64,000 nucleotides of DNA from Blastocatellia bacterium (GTDB lineage Bacteria; Acidobacteriota; Blastocatellia; Pyrinomonadales; Pyrinomonadaceae): the NCBI GenBank assembly GCA_013697915.1, contig JACCVY010000220.1, forward strand, positions 62,001 through 126,000, in the 5' to 3' direction. Position 1 is the stretch's first letter. Every line of letters begins with the position of its first letter. Under the pieces are notes generated by a model that was not told the DNA's origin, did no database searches, and saw only the letters and a list, made by a program, of their open reading frames with translations. Below are positions 20,020-27,013 of this stretch, one piece after another. A program made the position numbers and the translations under genes.

Positions 20020-20226
20020 CTAGTCGCGAGGGGTGGTGCGCATGCGGCCTTTTTTCTTATTGCGTTTGCGCGCCAATGCTGACTTCAGTTTTGCCTTCTG
20101 ACCTGGAGGGATAAAGAACGCGTGCTTTTTCGCATCCTTGATGATCTCTTCCGTCATTACTTTACGTTTGAAACGGCGCAATGCGCTTTCAATCGATTCG
20201 CCCTGATTAACAGTAACTATTGCCAT
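20020..20226 (-). CDS. rpsU: 30S ribosomal protein bS21
   Basis: A 68-residue basic protein with the bS21 pattern: VNQGESIESALRRFKRKV at the N terminus and a lysine/arginine-rich tail (ARKRNKKKGR). It binds near the 3' end of 16S rRNA and helps select initiation sites. It stands alone here, between surE and the radical SAM gene. Confidence 0.95.
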   Translation of the reverse strand: MAIVTVNQGESIESALRRFKRKVMTEEIIKDAKKHAFFIPPGQKAKLKSALARKRNKKKGRMRTTPRD

Positions 20227-20483: not shown

Positions 20484-22523
20484 CTAAGCGAGAACCGCTT
20501 CGGGTGCTTCCTGTTTTTTGCGGCTCAGACTTTGAATCTGGACCGGCTTATCAGCTTCCTTAACGTCAAGCTGCTTCTTCAAGACCATCTCCTGATAAAG
20601 CTTGCGCATCATCACCGCTTCCTCATGGGCGGTCTTGGGACCTTCCATCTCGGGCTTGTTGGGCCGCGTCAGGTCGATCGGGTTCAAGACCATATTGTGC
20701 GCCTTATCGGCGAGTTCGACCTCTTTGCCGCGAGCAAAGATTTCGTGACGGCCGTTCTCTTCATACCATTTTGCGACGGTCGCATTCTGGTGCATGTTCT
20801 CGATGATGTTTCTCCAGCCAATGCCAGTGTTGTAGGCACAGAATGAAATCTCACCTTCCTGCGTTCCGTAAGGAATGATGCACATCTCTGTGCGGCGGAA
20901 ATCGTAGTTGAACAGATCCTGGAACCACATTCCCGCGATGAACAGAAAGTTCCAACGATCCGCGCGACGCATCTTGATGTCGTCTTCCGAGCGATCGCCG
21001 CCAACCTTGCCATAGTCTTTGCCGGTCAGACCAAACGACTTATCAAACTTTTTGAAGAGCTCGTACAGCGTGAACTGCGACGGCGATTTGTACGGGTTGT
21101 AGTGCTTGAGAAGCGCCAGGCCCATCATCAAATTCGACATCCACTTGCCGCGCGCGGCGTCAGTGATCTTCTGCATATCTTTCACCAGCCCCGGAATATT
21201 CAGGAACTCCGGTACGGGCCGCATCTCGCGCGTTTCCTTGTCAACCATCACCGCTGTGCCAACACCACAATTTGGGTGGCAACCGCAGGAAACCTGGCCC
21301 CATTCGGCTTGCGGTCCGTGGACCAAATCCGCGAAGTCAGCAAACGCGCCCATCAATGACAGCGGAAACCAATCGCGCGTGGGCTCGGTGATTCCAACTT
21401 GATCCTTAACGTCGTGCGCCAGATGCGAAAGCGTATAGCGCTGTTGCAAGCGCCGCTGCGGCGTGATTTCTTCGTCGCGACCAGTAAACGAAACCGGCTG
21501 AAACGAAAGAAACGCAATCTTCTTGGGATTATCTAACGCAAAACGCACAATCGAACCAACCTGGTCATTGTTAATTCCGTTGACTAGTGTGGTAACGAGC
21601 ACAATCTCAACACCTGCTTCATGCAGGTTGTTGATGGCGCGCATCTTCACGTCAAACAGGTTGCCGACCTGACGGTGACTGTTGGCGTCGTTGCCAATGC
21701 CATCAAACTGGAGGTAGACATAACGCAAACCGGCGGCAGCGGCCTCGCGACAGAACTCTTTGCTCTTTGCAAATTCGATTCCGTTTGTCGCCGCTTGCAC
21801 GCTGTTATAACCAACCTTGCGTGAATACTTGATCGACTCGAGAAAGTGCGGGGAAATTGATGGCTCACCACCTGAAAACTGAACCGACATTTGACGGCGC
21901 GGTTTGATCGAAATCGCATTGTCGAGAATTTCCTTGATCTCATCCATGCTCAACTCGTGGACGAAGCCCACCTGATTCGCGTCCATGAAGCAAGGGTCGC
22001 ACATCATGTTGCAGCGATTGGTAAGGTCAACTGTCAAGACAGCGCCGCGACCATACTTGATGGTGCTGGTGCCATGGTTGTGCAATTTTTCGTCGTTGTG
22101 CGCGTCGATGTCGCGCCCCGGAAACATCTTTTCGATGTGCGTCAGAAACTTGACGTCGATGGCCATCATGTCTTCGAAGTGCCCATGGATCGGACAATCC
22201 TTAACCATCCAAACCTCGCCGTTGCGTTCAATAATCTGGGCCTTGATTTCGCCAACCTTCTCATTAATAAGAACGCTGACATCCTGCTTGCCGCTGAGAA
22301 TCGACTCCCTGGCTTCGATCACGCAATTAGGACAAAGCGAATCGGTCGTACGCGGCCAGCCAAGGGTCGGCTTGCTCTTCTGCCACGATTTCAGCAGCGG
22401 TTTGTCTGACCATTTAGGGGTAAATGACGGGTTCGGCTTGTACTTGTTAACCGATTGAATAACGTCGTGAATGCCGCCGGCTGCCAGGGTCAATCCCTTT
22501 TCGGCGCGCTTGATTAGTCGCAT
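20484..22523 (-). CDS. Radical SAM protein, Tes/Mss-like (candidate membrane-spanning lipid synthase)
   Basis: A 679-residue protein; the ATG at 22523 follows GAGGAG by five bases, while an earlier GTG lies upstream of that site and is rejected. An N-terminal zinc-ribbon-like part has CPNC at 64-67 and a CPIHGHF site at 110-116. The radical SAM cluster is CNMMCDPC (Cys171, 175, 178), followed by SGGEP at 217-221 for SAM binding. Further cysteines (CGCHPNC) lie around 420, fitting auxiliary clusters. This architecture is that of the MJ0619/tetraether synthase-like family, whose members join lipid tails by carbon-carbon bonds. Blastocatellia are known for the membrane-spanning lipid iso-diabolic acid, so that role is plausible. 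Other radical SAM functions cannot be excluded. Confidence 0.65.
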   Translation of the reverse strand: MRLIKRAEKGLTLAAGGIHDVIQSVNKYKPNPSFTPKWSDKPLLKSWQKSKPTLGWPRTTDSLCPNCVIEARESILSGKQDVSVLINEKVGEIKAQIIERNGEVWMVKDCPIHGHFEDMMAIDVKFLTHIEKMFPGRDIDAHNDEKLHNHGTSTIKYGRGAVLTVDLTNRCNMMCDPCFMDANQVGFVHELSMDEIKEILDNAISIKPRRQMSVQFSGGEPSISPHFLESIKYSRKVGYNSVQAATNGIEFAKSKEFCREAAAAGLRYVYLQFDGIGNDANSHRQVGNLFDVKMRAINNLHEAGVEIVLVTTLVNGINNDQVGSIVRFALDNPKKIAFLSFQPVSFTGRDEEITPQRRLQQRYTLSHLAHDVKDQVGITEPTRDWFPLSLMGAFADFADLVHGPQAEWGQVSCGCHPNCGVGTAVMVDKETREMRPVPEFLNIPGLVKDMQKITDAARGKWMSNLMMGLALLKHYNPYKSPSQFTLYELFKKFDKSFGLTGKDYGKVGGDRSEDDIKMRRADRWNFLFIAGMWFQDLFNYDFRRTEMCIIPYGTQEGEISFCAYNTGIGWRNIIENMHQNATVAKWYEENGRHEIFARGKEVELADKAHNMVLNPIDLTRPNKPEMEGPKTAHEEAVMMRKLYQEMVLKKQLDVKEADKPVQIQSLSRKKQEAPEAVLA

Positions 22524-22829
22524 CTTTTCTCCTCGGAACACTCTACTATTTGATTAAAATTGCATGTTTGCGAATAGAGGGGAATCACAGGTCCGCTCGC
22601 AAACTTCCAGAAATTCTTGGCAATGACCATGCCGCCATCAACCTCGGTCTGCCAACTGGTAAAATAATTAGACTTACCAACGAAAAAGCTGGAATCAGGT
22701 GGTGAACCTTCCCTCCTAATGTGTATCACGGCGACGCGCATTGGTCCGACGAACGCACAGCGTAGCATTTTGGCCGCCATTCGCCAAGCGCCAATTTTTG
22801 AGTTTTCAGGGGAAACTTGGCGAGGGTTT
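22524..22829. other. Leader region of the radical SAM gene
   Basis: 306 bp between the VWFA gene and the radical SAM gene. It contains the GAGGAG ribosome site and an inverted repeat GTTTGCGA (22566-22573) / TCGCAAAC (22597-22604) some 40-80 bases before the ATG, which could be an operator or leader hairpin. A 113-codon frame across it shows no recognisable protein character. Confidence 0.4.
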
Positions 22830-23891
22830 TTAAAGCCTGCCGGAGAAGTAACCAATGCGTGCGGTTACCTGGTGGGTGGGATTCGAGGTTTCGACGCGGA
22901 CACGTCTGAACTGACCGTCCTTCTTTGCATTCAACGGCGCATAGTAAAGGGCGTACTGGTGTCTCAGCTCGTCAGCGACTTCGGCATAGGTTTTTTCCAA
23001 ATCTCGAAAGCTCAGTGGCTTGTAAAGTCTGCCACCAGTTGCAGCGGTCAACTGTTCCAGATTTTGTTCGCTCGCATCAAGCGCAGCCAGACCGAGTCGT
23101 AAGTCATCAATGCGAAGTTGGTTGAACCGCCGGTCCGAATCGCTCGCCGCCAGCAAAAGCGAAAGCTCATCCTGTTTAGCTGAACGCTCAATTTGCGTAT
23201 TGCTAACTACATAAATTGCGGTTTGAGATTGAAGAGCAGCTCGCAGGGCCGCCTCAAAGGTTGAGCCGCGACCACTATCGATGCCATCGGTTAGCACAAT
23301 GACTGCGTGACGCGCCGTCGGGCGCGCCAACTGATCGCGAGCAGCCAACAGCACCGCATCGTGAAAACGCGTGAACATGCCTGGCGCTATTCTCTTCAAG
23401 GCACGATGCAACTGCATCTGGCTTCGGGTCCAATCCTGGAGCAGCGCCACCCGGTCATCAAACTGAATCAAGCTAATGCGATCGGCTGCGTCCAGGTGCG
23501 CGGCGAAGCCTTCAGCAGCAACGCGAAAGTCGTCGAGATTTTTTGCCACGGATGAAGAAGCATCGATCATCAGTACGACGTCCACTGGCACCTGGCGCAA
23601 ACTGAGATCGCTGAGCGACTGTTCGATTCCGTTTTCAAACACGCGAAAGTCTTTCCGAGTCAGATCAGGCACCAACCGGCCTGAGCGATCCCGCACAGTC
23701 ACCGGTAGCAACACTTCGGTCGTGCTAACCGAAATAACGTCATCTGGATCGATTTCTTGTTCGTCTTTTTGAGGAGCCGGTTTAGGCGGCGGCGGATTTT
23801 GCGATTGTGCCGGCGCGGCGGGCGCGGCACCGGTGAGAACGGATAACAGCACCAATATACGCAACCAAAAGGATGTTTTCCTCGGCCACAT
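22830..23891 (-). CDS. VWFA-related domain protein, acidobacterial type
   Basis: A 353-residue secreted protein. A signal peptide (hydrophobic LRILVLLSVLTGAAPAAPA) is followed by a Pro-rich linker and a VWFA domain of the kind expanded in acidobacteria (VPVTVRDRSGRLVPDLTRKD, then FENGIEQ). The MIDAS metal site is DASSS in VLMIDASSSVAKNL, with LTDGIDSG further on. The C terminus YAPLNAKKDGQFRRVRVE is typical for the family. It is the last gene of the run that starts with the Tad pilins, only five bases after the preceding stop. Function unknown; adhesion or scaffold roles are possible. Confidence 0.85.
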   Translation of the reverse strand: MWPRKTSFWLRILVLLSVLTGAAPAAPAQSQNPPPPKPAPQKDEQEIDPDDVISVSTTEVLLPVTVRDRSGRLVPDLTRKDFRVFENGIEQSLSDLSLRQVPVDVVLMIDASSSVAKNLDDFRVAAEGFAAHLDAADRISLIQFDDRVALLQDWTRSQMQLHRALKRIAPGMFTRFHDAVLLAARDQLARPTARHAVIVLTDGIDSGRGSTFEAALRAALQSQTAIYVVSNTQIERSAKQDELSLLLAASDSDRRFNQLRIDDLRLGLAALDASEQNLEQLTAATGGRLYKPLSFRDLEKTYAEVADELRHQYALYYAPLNAKKDGQFRRVRVETSNPTHQVTARIGYFSGRL

Positions 23892-23896
23892 TGATG

Positions 23897-24616
23897 CTAG
23901 TTGGACCTGGTTTTCGGCTGGGTCGAATCCGACTCGTCTCGTATCGCAGTTTTCATAGCGACGATCACCGGTTCCGTGACTCGGTGGCGGCGCAGCTCAG
24001 CGATCCTCGGATCGGAAAGATCAAAATCAACCGGCGAACCTTCGATGCGCTTGATGATGGTGCCCTCGGAAAAACCGGCATCGACCAGGCTGATGATCGA
24101 TTCGTTGGTTAGCGTCGGTGTCTTTTCCAATTTCAGGCCGGCGCCATTCTCGTCGGGCGGTGGCCTGAGGATGCGCACTGTTGCGTTGCCCGTCGTGGTC
24201 CGCGCGCCCTGGTTTGAGCCGCTTGTACCCCTTCCCCGAGTCTCGCCACTTGTTCCGGCGCGGTCGCCAAAAATGTCGTCACCGCCAGAATCCCCAGTTG
24301 TTTTTTTGCTCATGGGATTGCTGTCTGCAAAACTCAAATCGTCGTCAACGGAGAGAGCGTCACCCTGCGACAGCATCGCGAGAATAATATTTTCACTAAC
24401 GCCGTTGCGTTTAAGTTCAATCAAGCGATCAGGCTCGAGATCAAAACGATTCGGACGGCTGTGAATGATTGCGATGACGGTTTTATCTTTGAAGCCGGCA
24501 CGCACTAACTTGATGACCGCGCTGTTGGTCATCGGAGTCGAGGGCGACTGGGCCATGGCCACGGACGCCAGCGAAAGAATGAGCGCAATGGCTGCAAGCC
24601 TAAGAAAAGGTTTCAT
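23897..24616 (-). CDS. Secreted protein with two copies of a helical motif
   Basis: 239 residues from the ATG at 24616, which begins a clear signal peptide (MKPFLRLAAIALILSLASVA); a TTG nine codons earlier is less likely. Two ~50-residue copies of one motif are visible: TNSAVIKLVRAGFKDKTVI..RFDLEPDRLIELKRNGVSENII and TNESIISLVDAGFSEGTII..DFDLSDPRIAELRRHRVTEPVI. A Gly/Ser/Thr-rich linker separates them. I do not recognise a named family. It sits between a lytic transglycosylase and the VWFA protein in the Tad-linked run. Confidence 0.7.
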   Translation of the reverse strand: MKPFLRLAAIALILSLASVAMAQSPSTPMTNSAVIKLVRAGFKDKTVIAIIHSRPNRFDLEPDRLIELKRNGVSENIILAMLSQGDALSVDDDLSFADSNPMSKKTTGDSGGDDIFGDRAGTSGETRGRGTSGSNQGARTTTGNATVRILRPPPDENGAGLKLEKTPTLTNESIISLVDAGFSEGTIIKRIEGSPVDFDLSDPRIAELRRHRVTEPVIVAMKTAIRDESDSTQPKTRSN

Positions 24617-24646
24617 TGCGATCCGTTTCGTGACCACAAGCAAATC

Positions 24647-25642
24647 TCAATTTCCGCCATTTGGCGAGGTGATGGCTGAAGTCGTAACGACAGCAACAGC
24701 CTTTGTACGCCGGTAGCGATAGCTGATTCGCTTAACATAGTCACGAGTCTCTCGATACGGTGGAACTCGGCCGCCAAACTTCATGACCGCGCCTTCGCCC
24801 GCGTTGTAGCTGGCCAATACCAGATCGATGCGCCCGTTAAACTGATCCAACAGTTGGCGCAAATAACGCGTGCCACCGGCAATGTTTTGCGCCGGATCTG
24901 ATGGGCGCCTGACCCCGAGACGCGCGCTGGTACCAGGCATCAGCTGCATCAGGCCGCGCGCACCCTTTGGCGACAGGGCCCGAGTATTGAAATGTGATTC
25001 CTGTTCCATCACGCAAAAAATCAAATAAGGATCGACGCCGAACCGCGCACCACTCTGTCTAATCAAGCTATCGATGCTTAGCTTTCCAGTAGTCCAGCCA
25101 CGCTCTTTCTTAATAGAAGAGTCGGATTCAGCCAGACTTTCCAGCCCCTCGCGTTCAATGTGGTCGACCCGGCCGCGCTCGACAAAAATCGAGAGTGAGC
25201 CGCGTCGATACCAAACACCCGCTGTTGTTTCGGTAGCGTTATCCGCCTCGACGCGTGCGCCGCCGATCAGATAAACCCACGCTGGACCATCGTTGGGCTC
25301 AGCATCCACTTTTTCAGGCGCAGGAACTTTAATCACGAGGTCTTCGACATCGGGCTTCGCTTTCAGACCGCGCTCGATTACTTTCACGCGTTCACGAGCG
25401 ATCAAGTGACTTATCCCACCGCGCTGATACCAGATTCCTTGCGCGCTCTCCCACGCTTCGTCAACGGGAAAACTACTTCCATCGATCAACTTAAGATGGA
25501 TGCCCGGTGCGGGTTGTTCAACTGCAGCTGCCTGAAACTTGTGGTGCCGTGGCTTTGTTTTTTTGGCGTCGGCCACGCGGAAGCAACACGCAATCAATGC
25601 GCACGAAGCAAGAACTTGAACTGTGCGGTATTGAAATCTCAT
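24647..25642 (-). CDS. Lytic transglycosylase (SLT domain)
   Basis: A 331-residue exported protein with an N-terminal hydrophobic stretch (VLASCALIACCF). Two related N-terminal repeats (KLIDGSSFPVDEAWESAQGIWYQRGG and VYLIGGARV..AGVWYRRG, partly quoted) precede a C-terminal SLT domain from about 185. The catalytic glutamate is in MEQESHFN, followed by GLMQLMP, NIAGGTRYL and SYNAGEGAV. It cleaves peptidoglycan with formation of 1,6-anhydro ends. Within the pilus run it probably opens the wall for assembly of the machine. Confidence 0.85.
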   Translation of the reverse strand: MRFQYRTVQVLASCALIACCFRVADAKKTKPRHHKFQAAAVEQPAPGIHLKLIDGSSFPVDEAWESAQGIWYQRGGISHLIARERVKVIERGLKAKPDVEDLVIKVPAPEKVDAEPNDGPAWVYLIGGARVEADNATETTAGVWYRRGSLSIFVERGRVDHIEREGLESLAESDSSIKKERGWTTGKLSIDSLIRQSGARFGVDPYLIFCVMEQESHFNTRALSPKGARGLMQLMPGTSARLGVRRPSDPAQNIAGGTRYLRQLLDQFNGRIDLVLASYNAGEGAVMKFGGRVPPYRETRDYVKRISYRYRRTKAVAVVTTSAITSPNGGN

Positions 25643-25660
25643 CGGTAAAAACTGGAGGTT

Positions 25661-27013
25661 TTACAGTTCCAGCGGATCGGCCAATGTCCTTTCAATCATT
25701 GTTTCCTGCGTGGCCATTGGCGCGAAGGAGTGCGACGCGCCGAAGTAGTTACGCCAAGCCACGTCGATGACGTCGGGACTCAGCGCCAGCGAATGTCCAT
25801 CGAATAAGCAGAGGTCGGTTATACGGTCGAGCAGATCTCGCGGTTCGCAGCCCTTCATTTGGCGATGTTCTATGCGGTACTTATTCAGGACATGATCGAG
25901 CGCCGCGTCGTCGCATTGAATTCCGCGGTTGTAAGCCTGGCGCTTGAAGATTTCGATGTAGGCACGCGGCGTCGGCGGTTCAACGCGCGCGCGATAGCCC
26001 ATGCGTCTTAAGAATGCCTGATCCGCAAGATCCTTTTCATCAAGGTTTGTTGAGAAGACTACAAGTTGTTCAAAAGGAACTTCGATCTTTTTCCCTGTGT
26101 GCAACGCGAGATAGTCGACGCGACGCTCAAGCGGAACAATCCAGCGATTGAGCAGGTCCTGAGGCGCGACGCGCTGCCGGCCAAAGTCGTCAATTACAAG
26201 CGTGCCGCCGTTGGACTTCATCTGAAACGGCGCTTCATAGAATTTTGCCGAATCGCTCCAGGTGAGATCGGCATTCTCCAAAGTCAGTTCACCGCCAACG
26301 ACAACGAGCGGCCGATCAATCAGTACCCACCGCCGGTCATATTCAACCGGCGTCACTTCCGTTGAGGCAACCCGGTGGCAATGCGAATCAAACACGCGAA
26401 TGATCTGGCCATCGATCTCCACGGCGTAGGGGATCCAGATAGCGCCGGGCAACGCGCCGTTGATGCGTTCGGCTACAGCAGTTTTTCCGGTGCCGGGTAA
26501 GCCAGTTAGGAACAGTGATCGTCTGGAATTGATGACACAGCCAAGCGTTTGCAAGAGCGAGTCCGGCAAAATCAAATCGTGAAACGCCTGGCGCACGGTG
26601 TCCATCGAAGCCGCGTGCGACGGAATAGATTGCAAACGCATCATGTGCGCGTAATCGTTGAGTGAAACGGGTGCGGCGCCGCTGTAACCGCAAACAGCCA
26701 GGAGTCGAATCAAACGGTCCCAGCCATGGTCCAACATCGCATAGCGCGTCGAACCCACCGTCGTTTGCAGACGCACTTCGATCAATTTCTCGCGATAAAG
26801 TTTTTGCAGAATCTCTTCGGTCAGAGCGCGCGGCAAATGCAGCCGGTCGGCGACAGCGGTTGTGGTCGGCTCGGGAAGCATCGCAATGTGCTTCAACGCC
26901 AGTTCGCAAAGAAACCCTTCACCAACTCCCAGATCTGCTAATTCTTCCGGCACGGGCGGGCCCATTGCTTCAACTTCCGCGCGAGATAGCATCGTTGTAG
27001 GCGACATCATCAT
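25661..27013 (-). CDS. AAA ATPase, MoxR-like, with N-terminal winged helix
   Basis: A 450-residue protein. An N-terminal helix-turn-helix-like region (about 35-95, ALKHIAMLPEPTTTAVADRL) precedes a AAA module with Walker A GLPGTGKTAV near 172 and Walker B GGTLVIDDFGR near 260. Sensor motif FSTNLDEKDL and the arginine-finger region RRMGYR follow. The ATG at 27013 has GGAAGGTG upstream. It lies 21 bp after the TPR gene and 18 bp before the transglycosylase gene, within the pilus run. Such ATPases remodel partner complexes, often VWA proteins, and one is encoded three genes later. Confidence 0.75.
   Translation of the reverse strand: MMMSPTTMLSRAEVEAMGPPVPEELADLGVGEGFLCELALKHIAMLPEPTTTAVADRLHLPRALTEEILQKLYREKLIEVRLQTTVGSTRYAMLDHGWDRLIRLLAVCGYSGAAPVSLNDYAHMMRLQSIPSHAASMDTVRQAFHDLILPDSLLQTLGCVINSRRSLFLTGLPGTGKTAVAERINGALPGAIWIPYAVEIDGQIIRVFDSHCHRVASTEVTPVEYDRRWVLIDRPLVVVGGELTLENADLTWSDSAKFYEAPFQMKSNGGTLVIDDFGRQRVAPQDLLNRWIVPLERRVDYLALHTGKKIEVPFEQLVVFSTNLDEKDLADQAFLRRMGYRARVEPPTPRAYIEIFKRQAYNRGIQCDDAALDHVLNKYRIEHRQMKGCEPRDLLDRITDLCLFDGHSLALSPDVIDVAWRNYFGASHSFAPMATQETMIERTLADPLEL

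Follow-up and report, generated by a model that had tools for sequence, protein, structure and literature searches.

A Tes-like radical-SAM protein with three of the four MJ0619 metal sites as candidate iso-diabolic acid synthase of a Blastocatellia bacterium

Introduction

The archaeal tetraether synthase MJ0619 (Tes) contains four metal sites: a rubredoxin iron bound by C9, C12, C33 and H36; an N-terminal [4Fe-4S] cluster bound by C73, C77, C80 and a histidine; the radical-SAM cluster; and a C-terminal [4Fe-4S] cluster, which has a labile Met439 and adjoins the lipid pockets (PMC9433317). Catalysis runs via a bond between a substrate carbon and a cluster sulfur (PMC9433317). In the published mechanism this C-S intermediate is held by a [4Fe-4S] cluster, taken here as the C-terminal one.

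In Bacteria, Mss of Thermotoga is the proven membrane-spanning lipid synthase (as cited in PMC13274423 and PMC11604127). Bacterial homologues of Tes, including those of Acidobacteriota, were proposed in 2022 to function in the synthesis of branched glycerol dialkyl glycerol tetraethers (brGDGTs) (PMC8941075, PMC10087280), so that a role of such homologues in iso-diabolic acid or brGDGT formation has been proposed before. A 2022 paper still listed the enzyme responsible for coupling in the iso-diabolic acid route as unknown (PMC10087280). Branched GDGTs are common proxies for past temperature and pH while their producers and enzymes are unsettled, and iso-diabolic acid is a building block of the lipids that serve as these climate thermometers.

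According to a survey of seven acidobacterial subdivisions, iso-diabolic acid occurs only in subdivisions 1, 3, 4 and 6 (PMC13274423). It is common to the cultured strains of subdivision 4, such as Pyrinomonas (PMC4644332), is a primary fatty acid of the genus Chloracidobacterium (PMC12816986) and reaches 30.4% in E. modestus DSM 18101 and 26.4% in E. aggregans (PMC11354219). The latter has a single Tes homologue, at 32% identity (Zeng et al., PMC8941075).

Here we describe a Tes-like radical-SAM protein from a Blastocatellia bacterium which, on the evidence of sequence, fold and distribution, is a candidate for the synthesis of iso-diabolic acid, a membrane-spanning lipid component.

Results

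The gene is on the minus strand at positions 20484-22523 of the window, i.e. the whole 64,000-nucleotide stretch of DNA that was analysed, with an ATG at 22523 and the stop at 20484, and encodes a product of 679 amino acids; all features of the gene given below are on the same strand. An AGGAG is present close 5' of the ATG and a GTG at 22541 is likewise open, making a longer reading frame possible. An earlier sequence-only reading of this DNA had given these coordinates, which hold, with the strand unstated. It had also listed CPxC/CPxH, CX3CX2C and SGGEP motifs and additional cysteines around residue 420, all of which were found (residues 64-67, 110-113, 171-178, 217-221 and 413/415/419).

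Residues 1-28 (22440-22523) form an amphipathic helix, with the highest hydrophobic moment among 662 windows scored, and this helix may dock the protein to the membrane. It is followed by a rubredoxin-like metal site (C64-x2-C67 and C110-x2-H113, in CPNC at residues 64-67 and CPIH at 110-113; 22185-22334), the stretch HNHGTSTIKYGRG (residues 148-160; 22044-22082), which occupies the position of the N-terminal [4Fe-4S] ligands of MJ0619, the radical-SAM cluster motif CNMMCDPC with C171, C175 and C178 (residues 171-178; 21990-22013) and the SAM-binding motif SGGEP (residues 217-221; 21861-21875). Towards the C-terminus is CGCHPNC (21267-21287), in which C419 aligns with C338 of MJ0619 while C413 and C415 are extra, and then M532, C548, Y552 and C562 (20838-20930), equivalent to M439, C455, Y459 and C470 of MJ0619.

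Pfam matches were to Radical_SAM (E=9e-20) and to the zinc ribbon PF23545 (E=2e-13). The best NCBIfam model was NF045702, for the tetraether lipid synthase Tes (317.6 bits and E=1e-94 over residues 60-579), and the second was TrsS, NF045646, with 208.3 bits. These matches far exceed chance, but both scores are below the curated cut-offs, which are 450 bits for the Tes equivalog model and 490 bits for TrsS. A pterin-methylase reading, which we take to be the sense of the Pfam name HMPTM, was rejected; MJ0619 itself, once so annotated, has since been assigned to lipid synthesis (PMC9433317).

The top solved structure by sequence was MJ0619/GDGT-MAS (PDB 7TOL; E=4e-60 over residues 92-566), which is 30% identical to the window protein. 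A template-free structure model built from 30 orthologues was of low confidence (mean pLDDT 54, pTM 0.60) and served only to rank fold matches, not for pocket geometry. With this model (mean pLDDT 54) Foldseek placed 7tom (4.8e-18) and 7tol at the top, at about 1e-17 over about 575 columns, and the next structure at 3e-5. The window protein is, by both sequence and fold, a homologue of the archaeal tetraether synthase MJ0619/Tes (PDB 7TOL/7TOM).

The metal sites were compared in an alignment of the window protein, 37 further clade members, MJ0619 and 11 four-site acidobacterial Tes homologues of the kind noted by Zeng et al. 2022 (PMC8941075), which are referred to here as type T. The rubredoxin site (C64, C67, C110, H113) and the radical-SAM site (C171, C175, C178) are invariant in all aligned sequences, as are the equivalents of C338, C455, C470, Met439 and Arg275, the last in the FTGR loop. 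The equivalent of Tyr459 differs in one sequence, where it is replaced by asparagine; the other catalytic-side residues are kept in 38/38 clade members. Judging from this conservation, C338, C455 and C470 are presumed to be the three cysteines that bind the C-terminal cluster in MJ0619, and C419 is probably a ligand of the corresponding cluster in the window protein.

The N-terminal [4Fe-4S] site, by contrast, differs between the two bacterial groups: its ligands are present in 11/11 type T proteins and in none of the 38 clade sequences, where an HxHG motif takes the place of C73, C77, C80 and the histidine. They are likewise absent from all 79 readable named loci, while the radical-SAM and HxHG[ST]S motifs are kept in each of these 79 orthologues. 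The MJ0619-like architecture proposed by the sequence-only reading is thus borne out for the rubredoxin, radical-SAM and C-terminal sites, but one of the four sites is missing.

In a maximum-likelihood tree of 64 proteins, the window protein falls within clade A (26 rows, support 100/100). The genome that contains the window holds two members of the family, A, the window gene, and paralogue B (L002:3-1775, contig C11), which is cut by the contig end, is 53-55% identical to the window protein and has the same cofactor sites; B is near-universal in the family of this genome and patchy elsewhere. Clade A, a second clade A2 and paralogue B group together with full support, and the clade that they form has a long stem and is nested among the type T homologues. 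A group of distant homologues with 28-33% identity, here called type U, lies outside this clade; two of its members score 268 and 311 bits against the Tes family model. Several long branches were flagged in the tree, so that the exact sister of the A/A2/B clade is uncertain; the clade itself is firm.

Together, the missed Tes cut-off and the absent N-terminal [4Fe-4S] site mark the window protein, on sequence grounds, as a member of a distinct bacterial clade and not of Tes proper. The outcomes that would have spoken against the sequence-only reading, namely placement in a radical-SAM clade of known different function or absence from strains proven to make the lipid, were not seen. Two more radical-SAM proteins of the Tes/TrsS kind, 25-27% identical and with the N-terminal cluster kept, are encoded in Chloracidobacterium BV2-C (L162 and L165).

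The distribution of A in Acidobacteriota, given as counts of search rows, differs between classes. It was found in 53/59 close relatives of the window genome, with incomplete genomes accounting for most of the six misses; in 60/61 genomes of a class whose A protein groups with those of Edaphobacter and Granulicella; and in 34/50 genomes of a class represented by what appears to be Luteitalea pratensis (subdivision 6). None of the 41 genomes in a class likened to Holophaga/Geothrix has it (one match of 214 bits, the rest of 79 bits or less). This pattern agrees with the confinement of iso-diabolic acid to subdivisions 1, 3, 4 and 6.

The orthologue is the sole Tes-family protein in nine named strains and isolates, namely E. 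modestus DSM 18101, Granulicella paludicola, G. aggregans, G. rosea, Acidipila rosea, Acidipila sp. EB88, E. lichenicola, KBS 83 and KBS 146, in which it scores 309-332 bits and all other proteins 68 bits or less. It is also alone in two Bryobacterales genomes, while Acidicapsa dinghuensis has one further homologue, at 256 bits. Two proven makers of iso-diabolic acid carry the orthologue: E. modestus DSM 18101 and Chloracidobacterium BV2-C, the latter through a genome matched to this strain in which it is 75% identical. The 32% homologue of E. aggregans reported by Zeng et al. would fit in the window clade, whose identity to MJ0619 is 30%.

Two loci from genomes titled Rhodanobacteraceae (L108 and L110) have a copy of the Terriglobales type with 85-86% identity to the query and are probably misnamed or mixed bins. 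A scan of viral contigs gave no relative, and a plasmid search gave only matches below 60% identity.

No gene order is common to the window and 33 named loci, which agrees with the proposal that the gene stands alone. The further suggestion of a leader and separate control was not upheld: the 306-bp intergenic stretch upstream (22524-22829), which contains the AGGAG ribosome-binding site, matched no Rfam family, and its promoter and terminator signals did not exceed chance. Downstream, the ribosomal protein S21 gene (20020-20226, minus strand) is a constant neighbour of the candidate within the genus. Upstream, at 22830-27013 on the minus strand, genes for a VWA-domain protein, a lytic transglycosylase and an AAA/MoxR-like ATPase follow in a row. 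Elsewhere, among Terriglobia-like genomes (L180 and L181, also L073 and L074), a type T gene is found directly after the orthologue on the same strand in two genomes of one family, and about 6 kb from it in two others, an association that hints at a role in lipid metabolism.

A search of the window genome for partners in ether formation did not find DUF2229 (PlsA/Ger) and gave only one short BcrAD/BadFG protein of 336 amino acids; ether formation, if any, would hence follow a non-Ger/PlsA route.

Discussion

We propose, with a probability of roughly three in four, that the window protein is the iso-diabolic acid synthase, and so the membrane-spanning lipid synthase, of this Blastocatellia bacterium, its chemistry, substrate and product being those predicted below. 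In favour of this are MJ0619 as top match by sequence and fold, the conservation on the catalytic side, the strains with a sole copy, the class pattern and the type T neighbours. The candidate put forward by the sequence-only reading, a Tes-like radical-SAM enzyme of membrane-spanning lipid synthesis, is retained on the strength of the MJ0619 matches, the kept C-terminal cluster residues and the presence of the gene in proven producers; its assignment to Tes holds as homology only, the protein belonging to a clade of its own. Counted against the proposal are the 30% identity to MJ0619, the missed N-terminal cluster and curated cut-off, the fact that the proven bacterial enzyme is Mss of Thermotoga, the second family member in the same genome, which could be the real synthase, and Solibacter usitatus, which makes brGDGTs while its iso-diabolic acid is undetectable.

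By analogy with MJ0619, the substrates would be two phospholipids bearing iso-C15 acyl chains. The radical-SAM cluster would generate a 5'-deoxyadenosyl radical that abstracts a hydrogen from one chain at its methyl end, and the C-terminal [4Fe-4S] cluster would store the resulting carbon radical by way of a C-S bond. With a second SAM, the other chain would then be activated, and tail-to-tail joining would give 13,16-dimethyl-octacosanedioyl (iso-diabolic) chains. For the product in the window genome, an ester linkage, or etherification by a non-Ger/PlsA route, is most likely.

An enzyme of the Tes family need not make iso-diabolic acid; it could crosslink, cyclise or otherwise modify lipid chains, or act at another carbon. 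The related radical-SAM lipid enzymes Gms and Grs crosslink chains and form rings, respectively (PMC11186832), the clade lacks one of the Tes metal sites and has a long stem, and where a fully equipped Tes homologue adjoins the gene, that homologue could do the coupling. Such another product is nevertheless unlikely, as the nine named strains and isolates have no other Tes-family member, one of them contains 30% iso-diabolic acid, and no other candidate from the family is left. Alternatively, iso-diabolic acid could be made by an Mss of the Thermotoga kind encoded elsewhere, with the window protein doing something else. Among bacterial enzymes, only Mss has proven activity (as cited in PMC13274423 and PMC11604127); one survey counts Mss and Tes homologues apart in Acidobacteriota genomes; and homologues of 28-33% identity, most of them with four sites, occur in other Blastocatellia including Chloracidobacterium. 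Against this, searches in which Mss itself was not the query gave nothing else scoring like the type U proteins in E. modestus and the eight other named strains and isolates, and nothing of that strength in the window genome beyond the window protein except paralogue B. We regard an Mss encoded elsewhere as quite improbable.

That exception could itself be the lipid synthase here, with the window protein as its partner or as a duplicate with a changed role, a division suggested by the identical cofactor sites and by the near-universal presence of B in the family of the window genome. However, E. modestus, a single-copy producer, lacks B, and it is A that is widespread across classes, which makes a synthase role for B in place of A very improbable. 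Returning to A as the synthase, it is conceivable, at slightly less than even odds, that the whole clade represents the iso-diabolic acid synthase lineage of Acidobacteriota, separate from Tes and working without an N-terminal [4Fe-4S] cluster in aerobes, and that paralogue B divides the labour with A, e.g. in a second coupling or on an ether-linked substrate.

The literature searched, which did not include the original report of Mss or the lipid survey of 2018, gave no description of a separate clade lacking the N-terminal cluster, of its sole-member status in strong producers or of the class-level pattern, and an earlier account is possible. A gene that is single-copy and follows the lipid from one acidobacterial class to the next makes the enzyme question testable and would yield a marker gene for producers in soil. 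If the N-terminal cluster is dispensable, this narrows down which of the four Tes metal sites joins two unactivated carbons.

Compared with Tes/MJ0619, the window protein has the same fold by search, the rubredoxin-like site, the radical-SAM cluster, the C-terminal [4Fe-4S] residues including Met439 and Tyr459, and the FQPVSFTGR loop with Gln268, Ser271 and Arg275. It differs in its 30% identity, in reaching 317 of 450 bits and in the absence of the N-terminal [4Fe-4S] ligands, and has an amphipathic N-terminal helix and a long C-terminal tail; a bacterial substrate is expected. The type T proteins are the nearest tree relatives outside the clade and have the same core, but they keep the CxxxCxxC...H of the N-terminal cluster, are 30-36% identical, have a patchy distribution and sometimes adjoin the orthologue. 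TrsS (NF045646) and type U share the radical-SAM core and a similar cysteine layout; they lie outside the window clade with full support, most retain the N-terminal cluster, and the window protein scores 208 of 490 against TrsS. Mss of Thermotoga maritima, as cited in PMC13274423 and PMC11604127, is proposed to perform the same reaction, tail-to-tail fatty acyl coupling, and is reported to have the Tes catalytic architecture. It is described as working mainly in the absence of oxygen (PMC11868695), whereas most of the acidobacterial strains considered here are aerobic.
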